A stretch of DNA of 50,355 nucleotides from Bacteroidia bacterium (GTDB lineage Bacteria > Bacteroidota > Bacteroidia > Cytophagales > Cyclobacteriaceae). This document shows, one piece after another, positions 27,134 through 36,392 of this stretch (position 1 is the stretch's first letter; each line of letters starts with the position of its first letter). The position numbers were made by a program, and so were the translations under genes. The DNA lies in the NCBI GenBank assembly GCA_030425425.1, contig JAUIAO010000046.1, positions 1-50,355 on the forward strand, read 5' to 3'. A model generated the notes under the pieces. The model was given only the letters and a program-made list of their open reading frames with translations, did no database searches and was not told the origin of the DNA.

Positions 27134-28480
27134 ATGATAGCGAATTTGGTCGCCAGGTCAAGAATATTTTTGCAAGAGGATCTTTGGAAAGTAAGGATTC
27201 ACACGCTCCCTCGTAAAAAAGCCATCTTATATAAGCAACTGAGAATTTGGATGATTGCCATCTCGGAATTCATCAATGATAAATGCGGTGAGAAAGCCTC
27301 AGCATTAACTTATTTTTCACTCCTATCGATCGTTCCCGTGCTGGCAATGGCATTTGGCATAGCCCAGATGTTTGGCTTAAAGGACTATGTGCAGAGGGAG
27401 TTGGCCAGATATCTGGAAGGTCAGAAGGATATATTGGATATGGTCAGCGGTTTTGCCAATAACATGTTGTCTGAAGCTGGAGGAGGAGTCATATCGGGGT
27501 TTAGTGCGGTTTTTTTGATTTATGCCGTGGCTCGACTACTGAATAATATCGAGATCTCATTCAATCATATTTGGGATACCCCCAAAGGAAGATCTATTAA
27601 AAGGATGATTACAGATTATATGTCTATTATTCTTTTAGGACCTATAATACTTATTCTTTCTAGTTCATTCACAGTTTTTATCACCACTAAGCTGGCAGAA
27701 ATAACTGGTAGTATAGAACTGCTAGGTTATTTTAGACCAGTCATATTGTTTTTGATTCGTTTAATCCCATATTCTCTGATTTGGTTTTTACTTTTTCTGG
27801 TATATGTGATTTTCCCAAATACCACGGTTAAAATAAGGCCAGCGCTTATTGCAGGAATTCTGGCAGGAACCGCTTATCAGCTCACGCAGTTCGGTTGGAT
27901 CAAAGGACAGGTTTTCCTGACCAAATACAGTGATATTTATGGGATTTTTGCAGCCTTGCCATTATTCATGATATGGCTCCAACTCAGCTGGATGATTTTG
28001 CTTTTTGGGGCAGAATACGCTTTCGCGATTCAAAATGTAGATAGTTGGGCTTATGATAATGAAAAACTCAGGCTCAATGCGAAATCTAGACGTTCTCTGA
28101 ACTTACTCATACTTACTAGAATTGTTAAAAAGTTCGAAGAAAATGACGAGCACACCACCTATCAGGGAATTCGCCAGCATCTTGATATGCCGAGTAGGCT
28201 GATAAGAGATGCATTGGGTGAATTGGAAGCGGCTGGTTTGATTAGTGAAATAGCTGGTACAGAAGAAAAGACTTATCAGCCAGCAGTAGATATCCATAAG
28301 CTGGATATTCACTATGTTATTGAGAAGTTGGACAAGGTTGGAGAAAGTAATTCTTTTAAACTTTCTTCGATCGATCAGTTCGAGCAATTTGACTCTCTGG
28401 TTGACGATATTTTGAAAGAAGTTAAAGTATCTGAAAAGAACAAGAAAATTCTTGACCTACCTACTCCTTTGCTTAAATGA
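27134..28480 (+). CDS. YihY/BrkB-family membrane protein with C-terminal extension
   Basis: A 448-residue integral membrane protein of the YihY/virulence factor BrkB family (UPF0761), once misnamed RNase BN. Seen: the family opening 'KCGEKASALTYFSLLSIVPVLAMAFG' near residue 55, about six membrane segments over residues 60-295, and 'IYGIFAALPLFMIWLQLSWMILLFGAEYAF' near 275. Beyond it lies a cytoplasmic tail of about 140 residues containing 'HTTYQGIRQHLDMPSRLIRDAL', which resembles a winged helix and is common in Bacteroidota members. The start at 27134 is preferred to an in-frame TTG at 27113. Function is unresolved. Its 3' end overlaps the convergent DUF4442 gene by 24 bases. Confidence 0.9.
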   Translation: MIANLVARSRIFLQEDLWKVRIHTLPRKKAILYKQLRIWMIAISEFINDKCGEKASALTYFSLLSIVPVLAMAFGIAQMFGLKDYVQRELARYLEGQKDILDMVSGFANNMLSEAGGGVISGFSAVFLIYAVARLLNNIEISFNHIWDTPKGRSIKRMITDYMSIILLGPIILILSSSFTVFITTKLAEITGSIELLGYFRPVILFLIRLIPYSLIWFLLFLVYVIFPNTTVKIRPALIAGILAGTAYQLTQFGWIKGQVFLTKYSDIYGIFAALPLFMIWLQLSWMILLFGAEYAFAIQNVDSWAYDNEKLRLNAKSRRSLNLLILTRIVKKFEENDEHTTYQGIRQHLDMPSRLIRDALGELEAAGLISEIAGTEEKTYQPAVDIHKLDIHYVIEKLDKVGESNSFKLSSIDQFEQFDSLVDDILKEVKVSEKNKKILDLPTPLLK

Positions 28481-28951
28481 CCAGGTAAATTCAAATTCTG
28501 ATACGATGGTCCCATCCTTCATTTTCCCAATCGTTTTGAAAGTAGCTGTTTGAGCTTCACCAGTTTTAAGAGTTTTAGTCACCGCATCAAATGCATGGAG
28601 CCCATCTTCACAGTTAAAAAACACTTTATCTGTAGCTTTTTTATGAAAAGATGCTTTCATATCAACTATGATAAAGGCAACTGAAGGTTTGTGGCCAGTG
28701 ACAGCCAGTAAGCAGGGAGATGCTGTAGAAAGCTCTGCAGCCATACTTTGCACGGCGAAATAGGTGCTTTTGAAGGGGTTTTTATTGATATGTTTAAACG
28801 GAACGGTTGTGATACATTTAGTAGGCGTGAGTTCCATTATCCTCAGACCAGCTAAAAGTCCCATAGGTAGATTGAACAGCATGTAAAGACCAAACTTGAA
28901 GCTACTGGTAACTTGCTGCTTAAGTTGCTGTTGTTTTTCAGATAATTGCAT
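28457..28951 (-). CDS. DUF4442 hotdog-fold protein
   Basis: A 164-residue protein of the DUF4442 family, a hotdog fold related to acyl-CoA thioesterases. Visible family segments: 'RIMELTPTKCITTVPFKHINKNPFKSTYFAV' near residues 37-67 and 'MAAELSTASPCLLA' after it. Thioesterase activity is suggested by fold but not shown for the family. The end overlaps the convergent yihY-like gene. It lies 33 bases after the Sia-associated coiled-coil gene on the same strand, so it may be transcribed with the siaBC unit. Confidence 0.85.
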   Translation of the reverse strand: MQLSEKQQQLKQQVTSSFKFGLYMLFNLPMGLLAGLRIMELTPTKCITTVPFKHINKNPFKSTYFAVQSMAAELSTASPCLLAVTGHKPSVAFIIVDMKASFHKKATDKVFFNCEDGLHAFDAVTKTLKTGEAQTATFKTIGKMKDGTIVSEFEFTWSFKQRSR

Positions 28952-28984: not shown

Positions 28985-29542
28985 CTAGGTCATGGAGGCT
29001 GCTGCAGCTTTTTTTTGCTCTTGTTTCATGATTTTCTTCTTTTCCTGATTGAGGAAGAATGATTCCAATCCTCCTTCGAAGAATTTCAAGGCGATTGCCA
29101 GTATGAGTTTAATGAATAAGCCGACGTAATTTTTTAAGCTATTTAAAAAATTACCAAGATCTATAGATTGTAAGTAATTTGAGATCGCATCTTCTACGAA
29201 TAACTCTTCAAGTAAAAACAAAGCAATTGCTAGAAAGAATAGGGCGGTACTTGCTCGTCTTCCTACTTTAGCTTCTGCTAATTCTGAAATGGTGTTGCCT
29301 AATTGGATATTTTTATCCTTGATCTCATCATTCTGTTCACGAATCTGAATATTGGCAGTATCCAGTTTTTTCTGGAGACGATCAGATACCCGGGTAATAA
29401 CTTTGGCTTGTGCTACCAGGTCTTCATAATCATTAGAAAAATTGTCAAGATCGTTTTTATAAATGGCGTGAGTATCCAGTCTCTGCCTGAAGTCCTTTAG
29501 TTTTTTGATTTCCTCATGATAAAGCTCCTTGGATGCTTCCAT
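28985..29542 (-). CDS. Unknown coiled-coil, two-TM protein in the siaBC operon
   Basis: A 185-residue protein I cannot name. Residues about 5-92 form a charged helical coiled coil with heptad-like spacing ('RLQKKLDTANIQIREQNDE'). Residues 97-113 are a membrane segment, 118-135 a short amphipathic link, 138-154 a second membrane segment, and the tail is Lys-rich then Ala-rich. With two segments both coil and tail should be cytoplasmic. It begins 10 bases after the siaC stop, so it is the third gene of siaB-siaC-this. A membrane platform or effector for SiaC is an attractive guess given that no SiaD is nearby. Confidence 0.8.
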   Translation of the reverse strand: MEASKELYHEEIKKLKDFRQRLDTHAIYKNDLDNFSNDYEDLVAQAKVITRVSDRLQKKLDTANIQIREQNDEIKDKNIQLGNTISELAEAKVGRRASTALFFLAIALFLLEELFVEDAISNYLQSIDLGNFLNSLKNYVGLFIKLILAIALKFFEGGLESFFLNQEKKKIMKQEQKKAAAASMT

Positions 29543-29552
29543 AAAACCCTGA

Positions 29553-29936
29553 TCAGAATTCTTCTATTTCCATAAAGTTAAACTCCAGGTCAAGTAGGTC
29601 CGCATAGTCTTCACCCGCTTCCATCATATCTTCATCATCCTCCTCGTAGTACCAATTGATAGTTAGATTTTTACCAGATTCTTCAATTTTACCTAATCGT
29701 TTGAATACGTCGAAAAGGCACTTCGAAGAACTGGTGTTGAAGTATTCGTAAGAAAAGTTTGCCTGAAATGAATCCAGATCACTATCTGCAATCTCGTCCA
29801 GACCATCAATAATCTTCTGGTAGAAGAGAATAGAGTTCTCTGGGCTAGATCGTCCTTTGATTTCTAGCAATCCCTCATCAGGGTCAAAGTTAACCAATGG
29901 TGTTACCCGTGTCGGCTCAATAAAAATCTTTTCCAT
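29553..29936 (-). CDS. siaC: SiaC-family regulatory phosphoprotein (DUF1987)
   Basis: A 127-residue single-domain protein of the SiaC/DUF1987 family, the phospho-switch partner of the SiaA phosphatase and SiaB kinase. The start at 29936 (MEKIFIEPTRVTP) matches the family; the longer frame from 30020 lies in the siaB end. With this start the conserved 'YEYFNTSSSK' motif places Thr at position 68, the same number as the phospho-acceptor described for Pseudomonas aeruginosa SiaC. The C-terminus is strongly acidic ('YYEEDDEDMMEAGEDY'). In Pseudomonas, unphosphorylated SiaC activates the diguanylate cyclase SiaD; no such enzyme is encoded in this window, so the target differs or lies elsewhere. 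Confidence 0.92.
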   Translation of the reverse strand: MEKIFIEPTRVTPLVNFDPDEGLLEIKGRSSPENSILFYQKIIDGLDEIADSDLDSFQANFSYEYFNTSSSKCLFDVFKRLGKIEESGKNLTINWYYEEDDEDMMEAGEDYADLLDLEFNFMEIEEF

Positions 29937-29973
29937 AAAGTTGTTTTCGAGCTTAATCTGTTGTTTTACCTCA

Positions 29974-30534
29974 TCAAATATCTCTAGGCAATCGAACCTG
30001 TAATGTAAAGTAACTAACATTCTCCGTTACAGGTTGGAATTTATATCTTAATTTCTGACCTCCAGTTTTTCTGGCAATGTCGATGAACCCCAATCCACCT
30101 GTGCCTTTGTCAGAAAACTCTTGTTCGTTCAGCGCTTTTTTGTAAAGAGCCCTCAGTCCATCTGCTTCTACCGAATTGATATCATCGAGTCTCTTCTGTA
30201 CTTCTTCCGTTTTGTCTGCAGGAATATAGTTTCCTGTCTGCAAACTATAAAACCTTTTTCGAGCCGCAATCATAATGAGAGCTGATCGGGAATCATAGCT
30301 GTTGATCTTGATTTCATCAGTATTGACTTCATCCAGGTGATAGTACAAGTTTTGAATGCACTCAGTGGCTACATTATAAAACTTCTTTTTCACCTTCCTG
30401 TTTTCTTCCAACTCCTCCAGACGTTCCTCCAACGTGGCGATCATAGAAGTAACCAGATCAAAAGTCAGTTCCCCTTTGTACATCAAAATAATGTTCTGAT
30501 CATAAATGTTTTTATAACTTCTTAAGTAGTCCAT
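29974..30534 (-). CDS. siaB: SiaB-family protein kinase
   Basis: A 186-residue GHKL-type kinase of the SiaB family (DUF6272), expected to phosphorylate SiaC. The N-box-like 'ATECIQNLYYH' is at residues 56-66, and the ATP-lid glycine motif 'DKGTGGLGFIDIARK' is at 142-156. There is no receiver, sensor or membrane segment, as usual for SiaB. It heads a minus-strand unit with siaC 37 bases downstream, and is divergent from the histidine kinase gene across 393 bases. The opposing phosphatase is probably the Cache-HAMP-PP2C protein at 34452-36392. Confidence 0.92.
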   Translation of the reverse strand: MDYLRSYKNIYDQNIILMYKGELTFDLVTSMIATLEERLEELEENRKVKKKFYNVATECIQNLYYHLDEVNTDEIKINSYDSRSALIMIAARKRFYSLQTGNYIPADKTEEVQKRLDDINSVEADGLRALYKKALNEQEFSDKGTGGLGFIDIARKTGGQKLRYKFQPVTENVSYFTLQVRLPRDI

Positions 30535-30927
30535 ATTACCTACCTCAAATTCTTCACACGTTGGTCAATCATTAAAATCAGGAGCCAAAGTTAACCATAT
30601 CAACAATATATCGAGTGACAAATGTGCTTTTAGAATTTTAAGCTTTTAGTACGTTTTCTATCTAATTATTGACTGCAATATAATGCTGATTGAAACGAAT
30701 TTTATACCAAATAACCTCAAATTCATCAATTAGGGATTGTTAAGGTCAAAATAATTGAATAATATGCAAAGCAAAATTGGATGGCTAAAACTGTTTAAAT
30801 GGGTAATATCCGCATCAAAGCAGTTTGTATCTATAGAATGACAGCACATTTATTGAATGAGTTGTCGAAAACATGGGTTAAATTTAGCCATACTGAATAA
30901 AGATTATTCAACCAACCCACAACCGAA
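30535..30927. promoter_or_regulatory. 393-base divergent region between siaB and the histidine kinase gene
   Basis: A+T-rich region that must hold promoters for both directions. No palindrome or RNA structure stands out. The only ATG frame of note is 25 codons long (from 30764, MQSKIGWLKLF) and has no supporting signal; I do not call it a gene. No terminator is seen. Confidence 0.45.
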
Positions 30928-32829
30928 ATGTTAAAAAAGGATTTATACGCGATTGCTTATGCTGTTACAGCTATTCTTATAGCAGCTTCAGTGGCATATT
31001 ATGTATTCGTAGTACAAAAGGATGTAGTTTCTAATCTTAATGAAGATCCTACTGTTGTTAGGATTGCATCAAAGCAAAGTACCCTGGGTCAGACCATCGT
31101 CAAGGCGGCTGTAGGTATGGGGTATTCCAAACAAGAAAGAAACTTTACAATTTTTCAGGCTGAATTAGCCAGAATTCTTCCAGAATGGAGAAAGGCACAT
31201 GAAGCTTTGATCTCAGGGGATGAAGAACTCGGTGTTAACAATGTGCCGGTAACATCCGAATATAAGCAGTTACAGGAAAATTTGAAGTTCTATTATGAAC
31301 AGATGAACACCAATGCCACTAACTTGCTTGATGTAGTATACACCGAAAATAAAACGGACATCAACGCATTGGCTTTAAGGAGTTCGATTGAAACCTTGAT
31401 CAATACGGTTAGAAAATACCAGACGGCTACTGATGAAATCGCAGATTATTTCGTAGCAGAGGCAAAATCTTATAAAGAAGGTTTGTCGCTCATAGAAATG
31501 ATCGTATTTGCTTCGTTCGTAGTATTCCTGGTAGCTCAGGCATTTTTGATCTTTAGGCCTTTGGTGAAATTGGCTGGTGAAAATTACCTCTCTGCAAACA
31601 AAGCATACCAAAAAGTAAAAGCATCGGAGGAAGAACTGAAAATCAACTTTAAGAAGCAGAAACTCATAAACAAAAAGCTTTACGAATCTCGTAAGGAAAT
31701 AGAGTTGAATAACCAGAAGTTGAAAGAATCAGAGTCCAAGTTGCTCAAATCCTCTGAAGAGCAGATTAGAATTAACGAAAAGTTGATTGGTGCTCAGGAT
31801 GAGTTGAAAGAAGCATATAAAAAATTACAGGATTCTGAGGTGGAAATCAGGGAATTGGCCGACAAGCAATTGCAGGATAACGAAAAATTATTCCTTGCTG
31901 AGAAGAAACTGAAAGAGACCTTGAAGAAAGAGCAGAAATCCAAGGAAGAGCTCAACAATGCAATACAGTCCTTGAAAGAAGCTCAGTCACAGCTGGTTCA
32001 CTCAGAAAAAATGGCATCATTAGGTCAGTTGACAGCAGGTATTGCACATGAGATTAATAATCCGATTAACTTCATTTCGAGTGGTATGGTGTCCATTAAA
32101 ATGTCAATTGATTCCATGAGAGAGATCTCTGAAGAGTATTCAAGACTGGAAGAAGGAGCACCATTAGAGGAGGTGATCGAAAATGTGAAAGAATTGAAAG
32201 AAGAGCATGAATATGAAGAAATACTCGAAGAGCTCGATGAATTGATCAAAGATGTAAACTACGGGGTGTCCAGAACGATTGAAATTGTGAAAGGACTTAG
32301 AGTATTCTCCCGTCTTGATGAAGAGGAATCTAAAAATGCGAACGTCAATGAAAACATTGATGCTACGCTCACACTACTTAGAAACAAAACCAAAAACACC
32401 ATTAAAGTTTCTAAATACTATGATGAAAACATGAAGGATATAGAGTGTTATCCGGGTCAGTTGAATCAGGTATTTATGAATATCTTGAACAATGGTATTC
32501 AGGCTATTCCGAAGGATCGGAAAGATGGTGAGATAACCATTTATACTGAAGAAATGGAGAATGAAGTTGTGGTGAGATTAAAGGATAATGGAGTCGGTAT
32601 TCCTGAGAAGATAAAAAGTAGAATCTGGGAACCTTTCTTCACTACCAAAGCTGTGGGTGTAGGTACTGGATTAGGTATGTCTATAACCTACGGTATCATT
32701 GAAAAACACAATGGTAAAATTGAATTTACGAGTGAAGAAAACCAGGGAACAGAATTCGTAATTACATTGCCAAAGAAATTGAGCAAGGTAAAAAAAGATC
32801 CGGACGAAAAAGTAACTGAAAATAAATAG
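30928..32829 (+). CDS. Membrane sensor histidine kinase
   Basis: A 633-residue hybrid-free sensor kinase. TM1 is at about 8-28 and TM2 at 189-208, flanking a helical periplasmic sensor of about 160 residues. A very long coiled coil, about 225-355, follows. The dimerisation box 'LTAGIAHEINNPINFIS' has phospho-acceptor His374, and the ATPase domain carries the N box 'FMNILNNGIQAIP', G1 'DNGVGIPEK', F box 'PFFTTK' and G2 'GVGTGLGMSI'. About 60 Glu-rich residues are inserted after the H box. The response regulator gene follows after 33 bases, so the pair is one two-component system. Divergent from siaB, it probably feeds the Sia switch. Confidence 0.93.
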   Translation: MLKKDLYAIAYAVTAILIAASVAYYVFVVQKDVVSNLNEDPTVVRIASKQSTLGQTIVKAAVGMGYSKQERNFTIFQAELARILPEWRKAHEALISGDEELGVNNVPVTSEYKQLQENLKFYYEQMNTNATNLLDVVYTENKTDINALALRSSIETLINTVRKYQTATDEIADYFVAEAKSYKEGLSLIEMIVFASFVVFLVAQAFLIFRPLVKLAGENYLSANKAYQKVKASEEELKINFKKQKLINKKLYESRKEIELNNQKLKESESKLLKSSEEQIRINEKLIGAQDELKEAYKKLQDSEVEIRELADKQLQDNEKLFLAEKKLKETLKKEQKSKEELNNAIQSLKEAQSQLVHSEKMASLGQLTAGIAHEINNPINFISSGMVSIKMSIDSMREISEEYSRLEEGAPLEEVIENVKELKEEHEYEEILEELDELIKDVNYGVSRTIEIVKGLRVFSRLDEEESKNANVNENIDATLTLLRNKTKNTIKVSKYYDENMKDIECYPGQLNQVFMNILNNGIQAIPKDRKDGEITIYTEEMENEVVVRLKDNGVGIPEKIKSRIWEPFFTTKAVGVGTGLGMSITYGIIEKHNGKIEFTSEENQGTEFVITLPKKLSKVKKDPDEKVTENK

Positions 32830-32862
32830 TAAGGAAGAAGGAGGATATATCATTAAAGATAA

Positions 32863-34110
32863 ATGGAAGAGATTCAGGGTTCAATAGCAACAAAAGACCG
32901 AAAGGCCAACAAGAAATATTCCTTGTTGTACGTAGATGATGAGGCAACCAACTTACGTGTCTTTAAATCCAATTTTAGAAAATTTTATAAGGTATTTACC
33001 TGTACCTCTCCCTTTGAAGCCATTGATCTTCTCAAAGAGGAGGATATTCAAGTGATTATAACTGACCAGCGCATGCCAGACATGACTGGGACAGAATTTT
33101 TAGAGAAAATATTGCCTGATTATCCGGATGTAGTAAAGATTATTTTAACGGGATTTACGGATATTGAAGCCATTAAAGATGGTATCAATAGGTGTGGAAT
33201 TTATAAGTATATCACCAAGCCGTGGAACTTTGATGAAATGAAGGCTGTGCTCGAAAGGGCAATGGAGACTTATCAACAGTCCATAGACAGTGAAGAGCAT
33301 GTAAAGGAACTTGAGGATACTAATGTAGAACTTGAGAAAAAGGTAAAAGAGCGTACAGAAGAACTTAACAATATCAACAAAAGACTCATTGATAGCATTA
33401 GATATGCAGGGTTGCTTCAGCAATCAATGTTGCCTAATGATCGTTATTTGAGTCGTATTTTCTCAGATCATTTTGTGCTATACAGAACTAAGTATTTGTT
33501 TAGTGAAGAATTTGTCTGGACTACCAGTCTCAATTTCAGATCGGAGGATTACACGGTAGTTGCTGTTATTGAGTTTGATGGAAAAGGAATCGTTGGAGCA
33601 TTAAAGACGTTGATAGCAGACTCTATCCTTAATGATCTGATTCAGGATAGAAAAATTTTCCATTCAGGCGATATTATTAAAGAACTCACAAGCGAACTGG
33701 ATGCTGCCGGATCTAAAGAATTGCAATGCGGCATAAAAGTGTCTGTAGCCCTGTTTGATAATAATGCGCAGACTTTACAGTTCAGTGCGATAAATCAAGA
33801 TATGATCATCTTTGATGGTAAGGAGATGGTAGTATTGGAAGGGGAAACGGAAGATAATATTGATGATCTGATGGCTGACCGTATTGAAATTCAGCCAGAT
33901 TCTACTTATTATATGTTTACCAATGGCTATTACAATCAGGAGAATCAGGATGGGGTGAAGTTCTCTCAGGAGAAGTTTGAGGAAATGCTGAAATCTGTTC
34001 AGAATAAGTCATTGGAGGAACAGAATAAGTTTTTAAGTCAGACCATAGATGACTGGATAGGAGAGGGAGGATTAACTGACGATGTTTCGATTATTGGATT
34101 TAAGCTGTAA
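32863..34110 (+). CDS. Response regulator with degenerate SpoIIE/PP2C output domain
   Basis: A 415-residue protein. The receiver covers residues 18-135, with acidic pair D25/D26, phospho-Asp68 in 'VIITDQRMPDMTG', Thr96 and Lys119. A coiled coil follows at 140-185. The output domain (about 190-415) aligns by eye with the PP2C domain of the neighbouring SiaA-like protein but has lost most metal-binding Asp residues. GDFYWFE becomes EEFVWTT (215-221), ADCTGHG becomes IEFDGKG (236-242), and SDG becomes TNG (353-355). Only the final TDD (405-407) is kept. It is therefore probably a pseudophosphatase that acts by binding, perhaps competing with the active phosphatase for SiaC. It is co-transcribed with the kinase gene. 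Confidence 0.88.
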   Translation: MEEIQGSIATKDRKANKKYSLLYVDDEATNLRVFKSNFRKFYKVFTCTSPFEAIDLLKEEDIQVIITDQRMPDMTGTEFLEKILPDYPDVVKIILTGFTDIEAIKDGINRCGIYKYITKPWNFDEMKAVLERAMETYQQSIDSEEHVKELEDTNVELEKKVKERTEELNNINKRLIDSIRYAGLLQQSMLPNDRYLSRIFSDHFVLYRTKYLFSEEFVWTTSLNFRSEDYTVVAVIEFDGKGIVGALKTLIADSILNDLIQDRKIFHSGDIIKELTSELDAAGSKELQCGIKVSVALFDNNAQTLQFSAINQDMIIFDGKEMVVLEGETEDNIDDLMADRIEIQPDSTYYMFTNGYYNQENQDGVKFSQEKFEEMLKSVQNKSLEEQNKFLSQTIDDWIGEGGLTDDVSIIGFKL

Positions 34111-34118
34111 GACCTATT

Positions 34119-34358
34119 ATGCAAATAAAAGCAAGTAATTTTAAGAATTGGTGTACAGATAATATCAGTCCACAGTCCTGGACGAGGATATGTTTGAAAT
34201 GTGTAGACTCGATACGAGCAAAAGGTTATACTTTGAAGCAAATGGAGGATTTAGAGCCAGATGCTGAATTGGATGCGGAGCTTCTAGCCGACTTGAGTAA
34301 AGCATTAGAAGCACTTTATGAAATGTCTGTTGATGAAAACCTACTGATCAGATACTAA
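34119..34358 (+). CDS. Unknown 79-residue acidic protein after the response regulator
   Basis: A small protein I do not recognise. It starts eight bases after the response regulator stop and ends 20 bases before a strong terminator, so it is the third gene of this operon. Predicted soluble and helical: 'NFKNWCTDNISPQSWTRICL' at the N-terminus, an acidic middle 'DLEPDAELDAELLADL', and no signal peptide or membrane segment. Codon use looks like its neighbours. It could be an accessory partner of the kinase or of the degenerate PP2C domain. Confidence 0.7.
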   Translation: MQIKASNFKNWCTDNISPQSWTRICLKCVDSIRAKGYTLKQMEDLEPDAELDAELLADLSKALEALYEMSVDENLLIRY

Positions 34359-34378
34359 ACTCAATGTGATAGTACATT

Positions 34379-34417
34379 AAAAAGGCTCATTCTAACTAAG
34401 TTTGAATGGGCCTTTTT
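34379..34417. terminator. Bidirectional terminator between convergent operons
   Basis: AAAAAGGCTCATTC (34379-34392) and GAATGGGCCTTTTT (34404-34417) pair over 14 positions with one T.G, around an 11-base loop. A T-rich run follows on the plus strand and the stem starts with five A, giving a T run on the minus strand too. It serves the histidine kinase operon and the SiaA-like gene. Confidence 0.85.
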
Positions 34418-34451
34418 GTTTTTGTCTTTTTAGATCAGATTAAGTCAAATT

Positions 34452-36392
34452 TTAAATCTCAACACCTAAAACTACAACATCGTCTGTTTGTTCCTTTCCT
34501 TTTTTCCAAGCTTCGAAAGTTCCTTTTAGTTTCACTGCTTGTTCACTCATCGGAAGGTCACTCACCTGTTCTATTAACGATTTGAAATTCTTAGACATGA
34601 ATTTCTTATCTTTTTCTCCTCCAAACTGATCCTGGAACCCATCACTAGCGAGGTAAAGTTTATCACCTTCTTCCAATTGGATGTCCTCCTTGTTTAGTTT
34701 TCCTGCCACTTCTTTTTCATCACCTTCTATACCTCCAATCATATATTTGGGGCTCTTATAGGTAATCAGTTCTTTTGTGCCTTTTTTCACTAGATAGAGT
34801 GGGATTCCTGCACCGGCAAACTCCATGCTCAAATCATCTAGGTTGATCACGCATAGGCCAATTTCTAGTCCATCACGATTTTCATTTTCATCACGTTTCA
34901 GCTCGAACTTGATTACTTTATCCAGACGGGTAAGGATCTTGTTTGGATCGATGTAATTTTGATAGTAAACAATATTGGTGAGTTGGTTACTGCCCATAAT
35001 TGACATAATCGCGCCAGGCACTCCGTGTCCTGTACAATCCGCACAGGCTATGATCAAATATTCATTTCTTCCTTGTCTTACTCTCTCAAACCAGTAAAAG
35101 TCACCGCTTACCACGTCTTTTGGTTCGTAGATCACAAATGAATCTTTTACAATTCGAGACATTACTTTTAGTTCTGGGAGAATAGATCTTTGGATTCTCT
35201 GGGCATACATGATCGAATCAGAAATCTGTACGTTCACATGTTCCAGCTGTAGTTTCTGATCGTGTATTTCGTCTTTCTGGCTTTCTAGTTGATCATTGAG
35301 ATCTTTCTGTTCTTGAATTCTTTTGATCAGTACCTCAGATGCACTTTGGAGCTGCTGGGCCAGCTTGCCTACTTCGTCTTTTGAATGAACCGGAATTTTT
35401 ACACTAAGATCTCCTTTACCCATTTCTTCTGCCGCTTTGCTCAGCTTCACAATAGGTCTAACCAGAATATTGGCAAAAATTAAAGCAAATATGATAGCCA
35501 CCACCAGAATCGTGATCACTACAATGATTAGCTTGTTTTGTATCTTATACAAAGGTAAAAATGCATCATCTTTAGAAATATTAACAATTAGGAACCAGTC
35601 CTCCCCGGCAAAATTTACGTTGGTATTCGATCGTGAAATAAAATAGAGCATGTCATCAGTTTCACTAAGAATTACTGACTCCTGACCATCTGAGGAGGAT
35701 TTTTTGATGCTATCGAAATTTTCATATTTGTCCTGCAGGGCTTTTTTCTGATCGTCTTGCGAATAAAGAATGATCCCATCTTTGTCTACCAATGTGGTAT
35801 TGAGCTTGCGTTCATCGTTATTGGAGTTTAGTGAAATTGATTTCAGTACATTGAAAAGTTCGTCTACTAAGATCCTTCCCACAAGCACACCTTTAGACTC
35901 GGTAGCATTTTCTTCATAAACCAAGGTGGCGAAATGCATGACATTTTTATCTACAGACTCTGATCTCGAAACATCAACAACCGTAGGGTTTTCAGGAGAA
36001 ATTAATGTCCAGTAAGAATTAAACGAATGCTCTTCACCAACTGAAAGGTCTTTACTGTCAGCAATACGCAATCTGTCTAAATTGAAATAAGAAAAACTAT
36101 AATAAAGGTCATTAAGCTCGTCCAGGTTTTTGAGCTGCGCGTTTAATTCTTCGGGAGAGGATTCATTATTTCGAAACACTGGATTTTGAGAGATAATTTT
36201 GATGTCATTAAGTCTTGATTCGACAAAACTCTCAATATTGGTAATGGCATGCGTCGATAGATTGGTGACGTTGGATAAAAGCTCCTCTCTTAGTGTCTTT
36301 TCTAATTCCCGATTCAAACTAACGTATAAGGATGCAGAAGTAAAAAATACCAGGCCTACTCCAAGTAAGATGATTTTAGCGTAATAATTCAT
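34452..36392 (-). CDS. SiaA-like membrane PP2C phosphatase (Cache-HAMP-SpoIIE)
   Basis: A 646-residue protein with the architecture of SiaA. TM1 is at about 5-25, a periplasmic dCache-like sensor at 36-280, TM2 at 287-309, HAMP at about 308-360 and a coiled coil at 355-390. The SpoIIE-type PP2C serine/threonine phosphatase domain covers 415-646. The metal-binding residues are intact: Asp431 in 'VSGDFYWFE', Asp452 in 'ADCTGHGVPGA', 'LASDGFQDQFGG', and 'TDDVVVLG' near the end. It should dephosphorylate SiaC in response to an extracellular ligand. It is a single gene convergent with the histidine kinase operon. Confidence 0.92.
   Translation of the reverse strand: MNYYAKIILLGVGLVFFTSASLYVSLNRELEKTLREELLSNVTNLSTHAITNIESFVESRLNDIKIISQNPVFRNNESSPEELNAQLKNLDELNDLYYSFSYFNLDRLRIADSKDLSVGEEHSFNSYWTLISPENPTVVDVSRSESVDKNVMHFATLVYEENATESKGVLVGRILVDELFNVLKSISLNSNNDERKLNTTLVDKDGIILYSQDDQKKALQDKYENFDSIKKSSSDGQESVILSETDDMLYFISRSNTNVNFAGEDWFLIVNISKDDAFLPLYKIQNKLIIVVITILVVAIIFALIFANILVRPIVKLSKAAEEMGKGDLSVKIPVHSKDEVGKLAQQLQSASEVLIKRIQEQKDLNDQLESQKDEIHDQKLQLEHVNVQISDSIMYAQRIQRSILPELKVMSRIVKDSFVIYEPKDVVSGDFYWFERVRQGRNEYLIIACADCTGHGVPGAIMSIMGSNQLTNIVYYQNYIDPNKILTRLDKVIKFELKRDENENRDGLEIGLCVINLDDLSMEFAGAGIPLYLVKKGTKELITYKSPKYMIGGIEGDEKEVAGKLNKEDIQLEEGDKLYLASDGFQDQFGGEKDKKFMSKNFKSLIEQVSDLPMSEQAVKLKGTFEAWKKGKEQTDDVVVLGVEI

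Follow-up and report, generated by a model that had tools for sequence, protein, structure and literature searches.

The closest described relative of the system considered here is the SiaABCD module of Pseudomonas aeruginosa, in which SiaA and SiaB set the phosphorylation of SiaC, and SiaC controls the diguanylate cyclase SiaD. The structural passages of PMC8457831 place Thr68 of SiaC in contact with S82 and Q86 of the SiaD stalk in the SiaC-SiaD structure 7e6g, and Y65, N67 and S69 of SiaC in contact with D83 and Q86. The authors of an eLife 2021 article propose that members of the SiaC family (DUF1987) modulate neighboring proteins. A comparable exchangeable linker is described in the RsbT/RsbU paper (PMC12143880), the available sections of which make no mention of SiaC or SiaD. 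Here we analyze an island of sia-like genes in a stretch of 50,355 nucleotides from a Bacteroidia bacterium of the family Cyclobacteriaceae (contig JAUIAO010000046.1 of assembly GCA_030425425.1, C103 in our numbering; hereafter the window). Judged by sequence, it seems to be a SiaABC switch in which the slot of SiaD is taken by a membrane protein, the coiled-coil protein CC, bearing the same kind of docking stalk.

A SiaABC island in a genome lacking GGDEF proteins

The core of the island consists of the following features.

28985..29542, minus strand: CC, coiled-coil protein of 185 residues, no Pfam family (AlphaFold2 model; synteny)
29372..29392, minus strand: RVSDRLQ, CC residues 51-57, corresponding to SiaD R80-Q86 and proposed to dock SiaC (alignment to SiaD)
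29078..29257, minus strand: CC residues 96-155, two hydrophobic segments, a predicted membrane hairpin (hydropathy and breaks between AlphaFold2 helices)
29553..29936, minus strand (open reading frame back to 30020): SiaC-family phosphoprotein, 127 residues from the likely start (PF09345)
29733-29735, minus strand: SiaC Thr68 codon
29974..30534, minus strand: SiaB-family kinase, 186 residues (NF038262, 130.5 bits)
34452..36392, minus strand: SiaA-like dCache-HAMP-PP2C phosphatase, active-site motifs intact (dCache_1, HAMP and SpoIIE)

An earlier note on this DNA had recognized SiaB, SiaC with Thr68 in NTSSSK, a protein of SiaA architecture, a histidine kinase with its response regulator and small genes, all of which are indeed present; the CC gene sits just outside the range that the note covered (29553-36392). 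SiaC matches PF09345 (E value 7.7e-38) and, by phmmer, the P. aeruginosa SiaC structures 6k4f and 6kko/7e6g (E about 2e-12). Its start is probably at 29936 rather than 30020, which gives the 127 residues typical of its relatives and places NTS at residues 67-69, in agreement with the P. aeruginosa numbering, and NTSSSK at 67-72. SiaB matches DUF6272 (E 2.2e-32) and exceeds the cut-off of 85 bits of the NCBIfam SiaB-family model NF038262, and the SiaA-like protein retains SGDF, DCTGHG, SDG and TDD, including the catalytic aspartates. The three proteins miss the NCBIfam equivalog cut-offs (216 of 700 bits for SiaA, 56.4 of 225 for SiaB with NF038264 and 74 of 150 for SiaC) and are thus relatives rather than orthologs by that standard. 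The gene order also departs from a single siaA-B-C-D operon, with siaB, siaC and CC contiguous and the SiaA-like gene beyond a histidine kinase cassette; some relatives (e.g., loci L127, L130 and L132 of our survey) have siaA-siaB-siaC-CC in one direction. The sensor part of SiaA is variable, since the homolog in three of the four same-genus relatives compared (L075, L076 and L078) is a protein of 423-425 residues without the dCache region.

The analyzed genome (5.85 Mb, 99.36% complete) contains ten SiaC-family genes (loci L069-L074, on contigs C57, C10, C70, C44, C24 and C77). Four of them keep NTSSSK; the other six form three tandem or near-tandem pairs without it, two of which alternate with small signal-peptide proteins.

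The earlier note had seen no GGDEF gene in 50 kb, and this holds for the whole genome, where GGDEF and PilZ each gave 0 matches while control genomes gave matches. A SiaD-type cyclase gene elsewhere in the genome as the consistent SiaC partner, which the note would have taken as a refutation, was therefore not found, and the diguanylate cyclase of the SiaABCD module is missing. Among 196 sampled genomes of the family, 130 have SiaC and 8 have GGDEF; of the 130, 6 have GGDEF and the remaining 124 gave no GGDEF match. In a phylum sample of 395 genomes, GGDEF occurs in 203 and SiaC in 22; as 16 of these 22 also carry GGDEF, SiaC without GGDEF is a trait of the family and not of the phylum.

CC as the candidate partner of SiaC

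The neighborhood of CC was followed in two sets: 63 named loci, almost all with Bacteroidota titles, obtained by scanning a single genome of each species with the CC alignment and a pattern containing the motif, and 35 CC genes (set A1) obtained by plain tblastn or read from related loci and not selected by motif. SiaC lies within 400 nucleotides of CC in 54 of the 63 loci, and SiaB or SiaC in 57; SiaB or SiaC lies within 500 nucleotides of 32 of the 35 genes. The cassette of histidine kinase, response regulator and 79-residue protein is present in only 13 of the 63 loci (a few of which are short), from Marinoscillum-, Ekhidna- and Reichenbachiella-type records. The contrast between 57 and 13 loci suggests that CC belongs to the core as its partner, whereas the two-component cassette was added in particular lineages. 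A lack of conserved neighbors beside siaBC, which the earlier note would have counted as a refutation, thus does not apply to CC. The order DUF2911-DUF302-SiaA / 79-residue gene-response regulator-histidine kinase / SiaB-SiaC-CC-DUF4442-YihY is common to relatives of several genera. CC is absent at the siaB locus of one same-genus genome (G161), which the end of a contig explains; a search of that genome gave a weak match.

RVSDRLQ is the most conserved stretch of CC among the 35 proteins not selected by motif, with S53 and D54 each kept in 33, R55 in 32 (K in 3), L56 in all 35 and Q57 in 26 (H in 7). SiaD has RISDGFQ at its first SiaC site and RISDRYQ at the site contacting Thr68, and CC has S, D and Q at the positions equivalent to SiaD S82, D83 and Q86. 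We searched profiles against 177,635 sequences of the PDB. A profile of 25 stalks, containing no GGDEF row and neither of two Azospirillum rows, ranked SiaD first (E 0.0051, the next match having 0.035); with the GGDEF and Azospirillum rows included, SiaD again came first (E 1.1e-6) and both SiaC sites were matched. By these comparisons, the gene next to siaC appears to encode a SiaC-docking stalk. Searched against 4457 distinct open reading frames (ORFs) from all loci collected up to then, a profile built from CC proteins alone gave 105 matches with E <0.01, of which 89 lie within 500 nucleotides of SiaB or SiaC, and on reversed ORFs it gave 0 matches at E values up to 1.

Co-variation points to the same region. 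We aligned 99 SiaC-stalk pairs (81 distinct) and fixed the interface columns beforehand from the published crystal contacts. The mean corrected mutual information at the interface was 0.053, against a null of 0.000 (standard deviation 0.006), and 0 of 5000 random column sets reached this value. A looser column filter gave 0.050 for all pairs and 0.039 for the 65 CC-type pairs, again with 0 of 5000 random sets in each case, while shuffled partners gave 0.005 to 0.009, and at most 0.015 (all pairs) and 0.017 (CC-type). When the SiaC column set was slid, the score peaked at register 0 for all pairs and at +1 for CC-type pairs. All 81 pairs have N67 and S69 in SiaC, and at residue 68 there is Thr in 79 pairs and Ser in 2. 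Together, adjacency, the SiaD-like motif and interface co-variation favor the coiled-coil membrane protein, one of two targets that the earlier note had put forward, as a candidate partner of SiaC; its broader idea of a SiaABC branch that lacks SiaD and has a different output gains support, with CC as the presumed target.

The stalk appears to be portable. The phylum sample yielded 29 SiaC loci outside the family, all such SiaC matches being counted, and 18 of them have a stalk match (19 with L200, the CC of which was removed as a duplicate of that of L155). One gene separates siaC from the stalk partner in L204 and L205, and L191 and L208 have weak, small stalk proteins. Ten partner proteins, three from plasmid records, carry according to Pfam GGDEF (3), HisKA and HATPase (3), SpoIIE (2) or Guanylate_cyc (2) domains. 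Within the family, there are 37 strong stalk matches in 34 genomes, all on ORFs of 166-206 residues, the size of CC. SiaC occurs in each of the 34, compared with 130 of the 196 sampled genomes overall, and GGDEF in 2. In the analyzed genome, a degenerate DNA pattern of the motif gave 5 matches (one being the CC motif) against 1 in the backward control, and the stalk profile found, besides CC, one protein of 75 residues (E 0.0014) without the S and Q of the motif, and no stalk partner for the three other NTSSSK paralogs. The gene for the 75-residue protein (L223, contig C69) lies away from any SiaC gene seen.

CC matches no Pfam family and has no recognizable effector domain. Its AlphaFold2 model, built from 65 sequences, has a predicted local distance difference test score (pLDDT) of 83 and a predicted template modeling score of 0.48, with helices at residues 9-23, 29-126 and 132-184. 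The stalk and the first hydrophobic segment both lie on the 98-residue helix, which is followed after a short break by another long helix. From the charge pattern, both ends are predicted to be cytoplasmic. In this model, docking on the stalk would pass straight to the membrane segment.

Our working hypothesis, which we consider likely as a whole, is as follows. SiaB would phosphorylate SiaC on Thr68 and the SiaA-like phosphatase would remove the phosphate. Unphosphorylated SiaC would dock on the cytoplasmic helical stalk of CC through R-[VI]-S-D-R-x-Q, as it does on SiaD in P. aeruginosa, and phosphorylation of Thr68 would block docking. Docking may pair or straighten the stalk helices and so alter the assembly of CC in the membrane, since the stalk is continuous with the first membrane helix. 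CC would thereby replace the diguanylate cyclase as output, the portable stalk carrying GGDEF, histidine kinase, PP2C or class III cyclase domains beside SiaC elsewhere; the two-component cassette would be a second input, its response regulator having decayed here into a regulator of SiaA or SiaC. The computations bear on gene content, the lack of GGDEF, adjacency, the motif and profile matches and co-variation, whereas phosphorylation, binding, the direction of the switch, the effect on CC and the cellular role are proposed. A wider proposal, which we hold only tentatively and rate somewhat below even chances, is that proteins of the SiaC family act generally as phospho-switched binders of a single portable stalk, joined in evolution to at least five outputs (GGDEF, histidine kinase, PP2C, class III cyclase and membrane hairpin), and that CC, in Bacteroidota free of cyclic di-GMP (c-di-GMP), is a new membrane output, for example a regulated channel, a curvature element or an envelope-assembly element.

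The docking stalk offers a testable rule: look for the motif after siaC, and the output domain names the pathway. If our reading is correct, a c-di-GMP regulator extends to bacteria without c-di-GMP, one phospho-switch is linked to cyclases of the cyclic AMP/cyclic GMP type, two-component kinases and phosphatases, and a second exchangeable helical-linker toolkit exists besides RsbT/RsbU. Our search of the open-licence full-text literature turned up no description of this family of stalks, nor of any SiaC partner apart from SiaD.

Weighing the alternatives

Several observations weigh against CC as the SiaC output. Three of the 35 CC genes have no SiaB or SiaC neighbor, and in Reichenbachiella the order is siaB-CC-histidine kinase-response regulator-79-residue gene with no siaC beside it. 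Conservation of the motif cannot be read from the 63 named loci because they were found by a pattern containing it. Against the PDB, CC-only profiles placed SiaD third with E values of 0.92 and 1.3, which are not significant; a single CC sequence gave chance matches alone, with no SiaD, and a 31-residue piece of CC nothing relevant. Stalk column sets slid by -1 and +2 scored 0.0544 and 0.0541, above the 0.0496 of register 0 (all pairs), and a slide of -4 did so for CC-type pairs; as slid sets score slightly higher, the co-variation locates a region and not residues. The relatedness of the pairs is incompletely controlled and may inflate the signal. Finally, a strong stalk match is missing from 96 of the 130 family genomes with SiaC, and 8 of the 29 outside loci show not even a weak one; therefore, other SiaC targets must exist.

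The most serious alternative, which we rate as unlikely, is that CC serves as a membrane anchor or scaffold through which SiaB and SiaC are brought to the phosphatase in the membrane, while some other protein is the true output. The absence of a recognizable effector domain fits an anchor, as do the Reichenbachiella arrangement and the stalk-only proteins of 77-99 residues directly after siaC in a few outside loci (L190, L191, L201 and L208), which would suit an adaptor. However, the stalk is fused to an effector in the SiaD-type, kinase, phosphatase and cyclase loci, and CC holds the same gene position after siaC.

The response regulator of the cassette is an improbable target. The cassette genes, with the other neighbors of the core, are as follows.

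30535..30927, no strand: divergent intergenic region between siaB and the histidine kinase gene, 393 nucleotides (coordinates)
30928..32829, plus strand: membrane histidine kinase, cassette gene 1 (HATPase_c, E 3.6e-23)
32863..34110, plus strand: response regulator, SpoIIE/PP2C active-site motifs lost, cassette gene 2 (Response_reg and SpoIIE)
34119..34358, plus strand: 79-residue protein, cassette gene 3 (follows the kinase and regulator genes)
28457..28951, minus strand: DUF4442-like gene downstream of CC (weak DUF4442 match of 18.8 bits, below the cut-off of 25; synteny)

The second target put forward in the earlier note was the pseudophosphatase response regulator, whose dead PP2C domain would hold phospho-SiaC, and the histidine kinase would determine when it is released. 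The domain is SiaA-like (NF038263, 121.8 bits), but SEEF, EFDGKG and SNG stand in place of the SGDF, DCTGHG and SDG of the SiaA-like protein, and it does not carry the metal-binding aspartates of an active PP2C. It is nevertheless 69-76% identical across genera, compared with 43-55% for SiaA, and this strong conservation suggests that the dead regulator has kept a function, perhaps in partnership with SiaA or as a holder of phospho-SiaC. Against a role as the target stand the limited distribution of the cassette, which is also absent beside siaABC-CC in L086 and L088, and its relatives with intact motifs. Six loci (L090, L091, L093 and L094 of Reichenbachiella, L071 and L230) have an intact regulator PP2C domain and no SiaA-like gene in the stretch examined, L230 having the order siaB-siaC-histidine kinase-response regulator-79-residue gene. 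In these relatives, the regulator is probably a SiaC phosphatase, that is, an input, and we infer that it once dephosphorylated SiaC under kinase control and turned into a pseudo-enzyme after a membrane SiaA had taken over. SiaA is present in 12 of the 12 related dead-domain loci compared. The rule that a dead regulator is always accompanied by SiaA is not strict, as L228 and L229, both on short contigs, have the dead domain without SiaA in the stretch; the domain of L231 could not be classified by motif patterns. L071, on contig C70 of the analyzed genome, is a second cassette beside another SiaC, with PP2C motifs intact.

The likeness of the stalks could also be a chance similarity of coiled coils, CC and SiaD being unrelated and SiaC not binding CC. 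The CC-only profiles, which rank SiaD below another coiled coil, speak for this, but it is very unlikely given that SiaD is the top match of the GGDEF-free stalk profile, which aligns with its known binding site, that 89 of 105 CC-profile matches lie near SiaB or SiaC with none in reversed ORFs, and that co-variation falls at the known interface. Action of SiaC on a distant, unrecognized diguanylate cyclase of the same genome, for which we found no support even though 99.36% completeness leaves room for a gap, has a negligible probability in view of the lack of GGDEF and PilZ in this genome and the rarity of GGDEF in the family (8 of 196 genomes).

As for the island as a whole, siaB, siaC, CC and the DUF4442-like gene form a run on the minus strand, the three cassette genes form one on the plus strand, and the SiaA-like gene (minus) closes it. 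Linkage of the DUF4442-like gene to CC is kept by synteny in Marinoscillum-type relatives. Promoter-like sites, sought in the intergenic region between siaB and the kinase gene, and terminator-like sites were no commoner than in shuffled sequence. The 79-residue gene follows the kinase and regulator genes in the 13 cassette loci and in 4 of 4 further loci, and one family genome has up to seven copies. Its product matched nothing above the Pfam cut-off, and a Foldseek search with its AlphaFold2 model (pLDDT 93) gave acyl carrier protein (E 2.1) and H-NOX (E 4.3) as best matches, proteins of these two kinds heading the list at E 2 to 6, with none at or below 0.001.

A transporter-like gene of 537-561 residues (a sodium:solute symporter in L075) lies downstream of CC in the relatives L075-L080 and L083, though not in the window. 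A POT-type transporter gene (the one of L098 was scanned) precedes siaB-siaC in L097-L101 and other family members, often near a GroEL-like gene. Two metagenome bins titled Rickettsiales and Thalassovita (L110 and L151) carry CC, and their titles look wrong. A protein of about 1025 residues follows siaA-siaB-siaC in L212, L213, L214, L216 and L220, with a similar one near siaBC in L189; that of L212, the one scanned, combines TerB with an ABC transporter and is a possible further SiaC target without a stalk.

Comparison with known systems

The island recalls Rsb-type partner switching in its GHKL-type kinase, STAS-like phosphoprotein and PP2C phosphatase. Unlike those systems, it contains no sigma factor, and SiaC, STAS-like in structure, belongs to its own Pfam family, PF09345. 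In the RsbT-RsbU switch (PMC12143880), a partner rigidifies a helical linker, and outputs of the PP2C, histidine kinase and GGDEF kinds have the regulatory module in common. There, the kinase-like RsbT binds the N-terminal domain of RsbU, whereas here the phosphoprotein SiaC is proposed to sit on a short motif, and class III cyclases and a membrane hairpin are among the outputs of the SiaC stalk.

The siaABC-histidine kinase-diguanylate cyclase operon on a plasmid of Azospirillum sp. B510 (NC_013857, L172) presents the motif twice after siaC, as ISDRLQ in the kinase and ISDRMQ in the cyclase. It differs from our island in that one operon encodes two effectors, both soluble, and a membrane hairpin is missing. 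With SiaABCD, as presented in PMC8457831 and PMC7647112, the island shares a SiaB-family kinase, a SiaC with N67-T68-S69, a HAMP-PP2C phosphatase of the membrane and, encoded by the next gene, a helical stalk with a RISDRYQ-type motif. Unlike SiaABCD, it has no GGDEF domain or gene, its SiaA-like gene lies outside the siaBC operon, its proteins score below the equivalog cut-offs, a cassette of histidine kinase, dead-PP2C response regulator and 79-residue protein is interleaved, and the stalk enters a predicted membrane hairpin.

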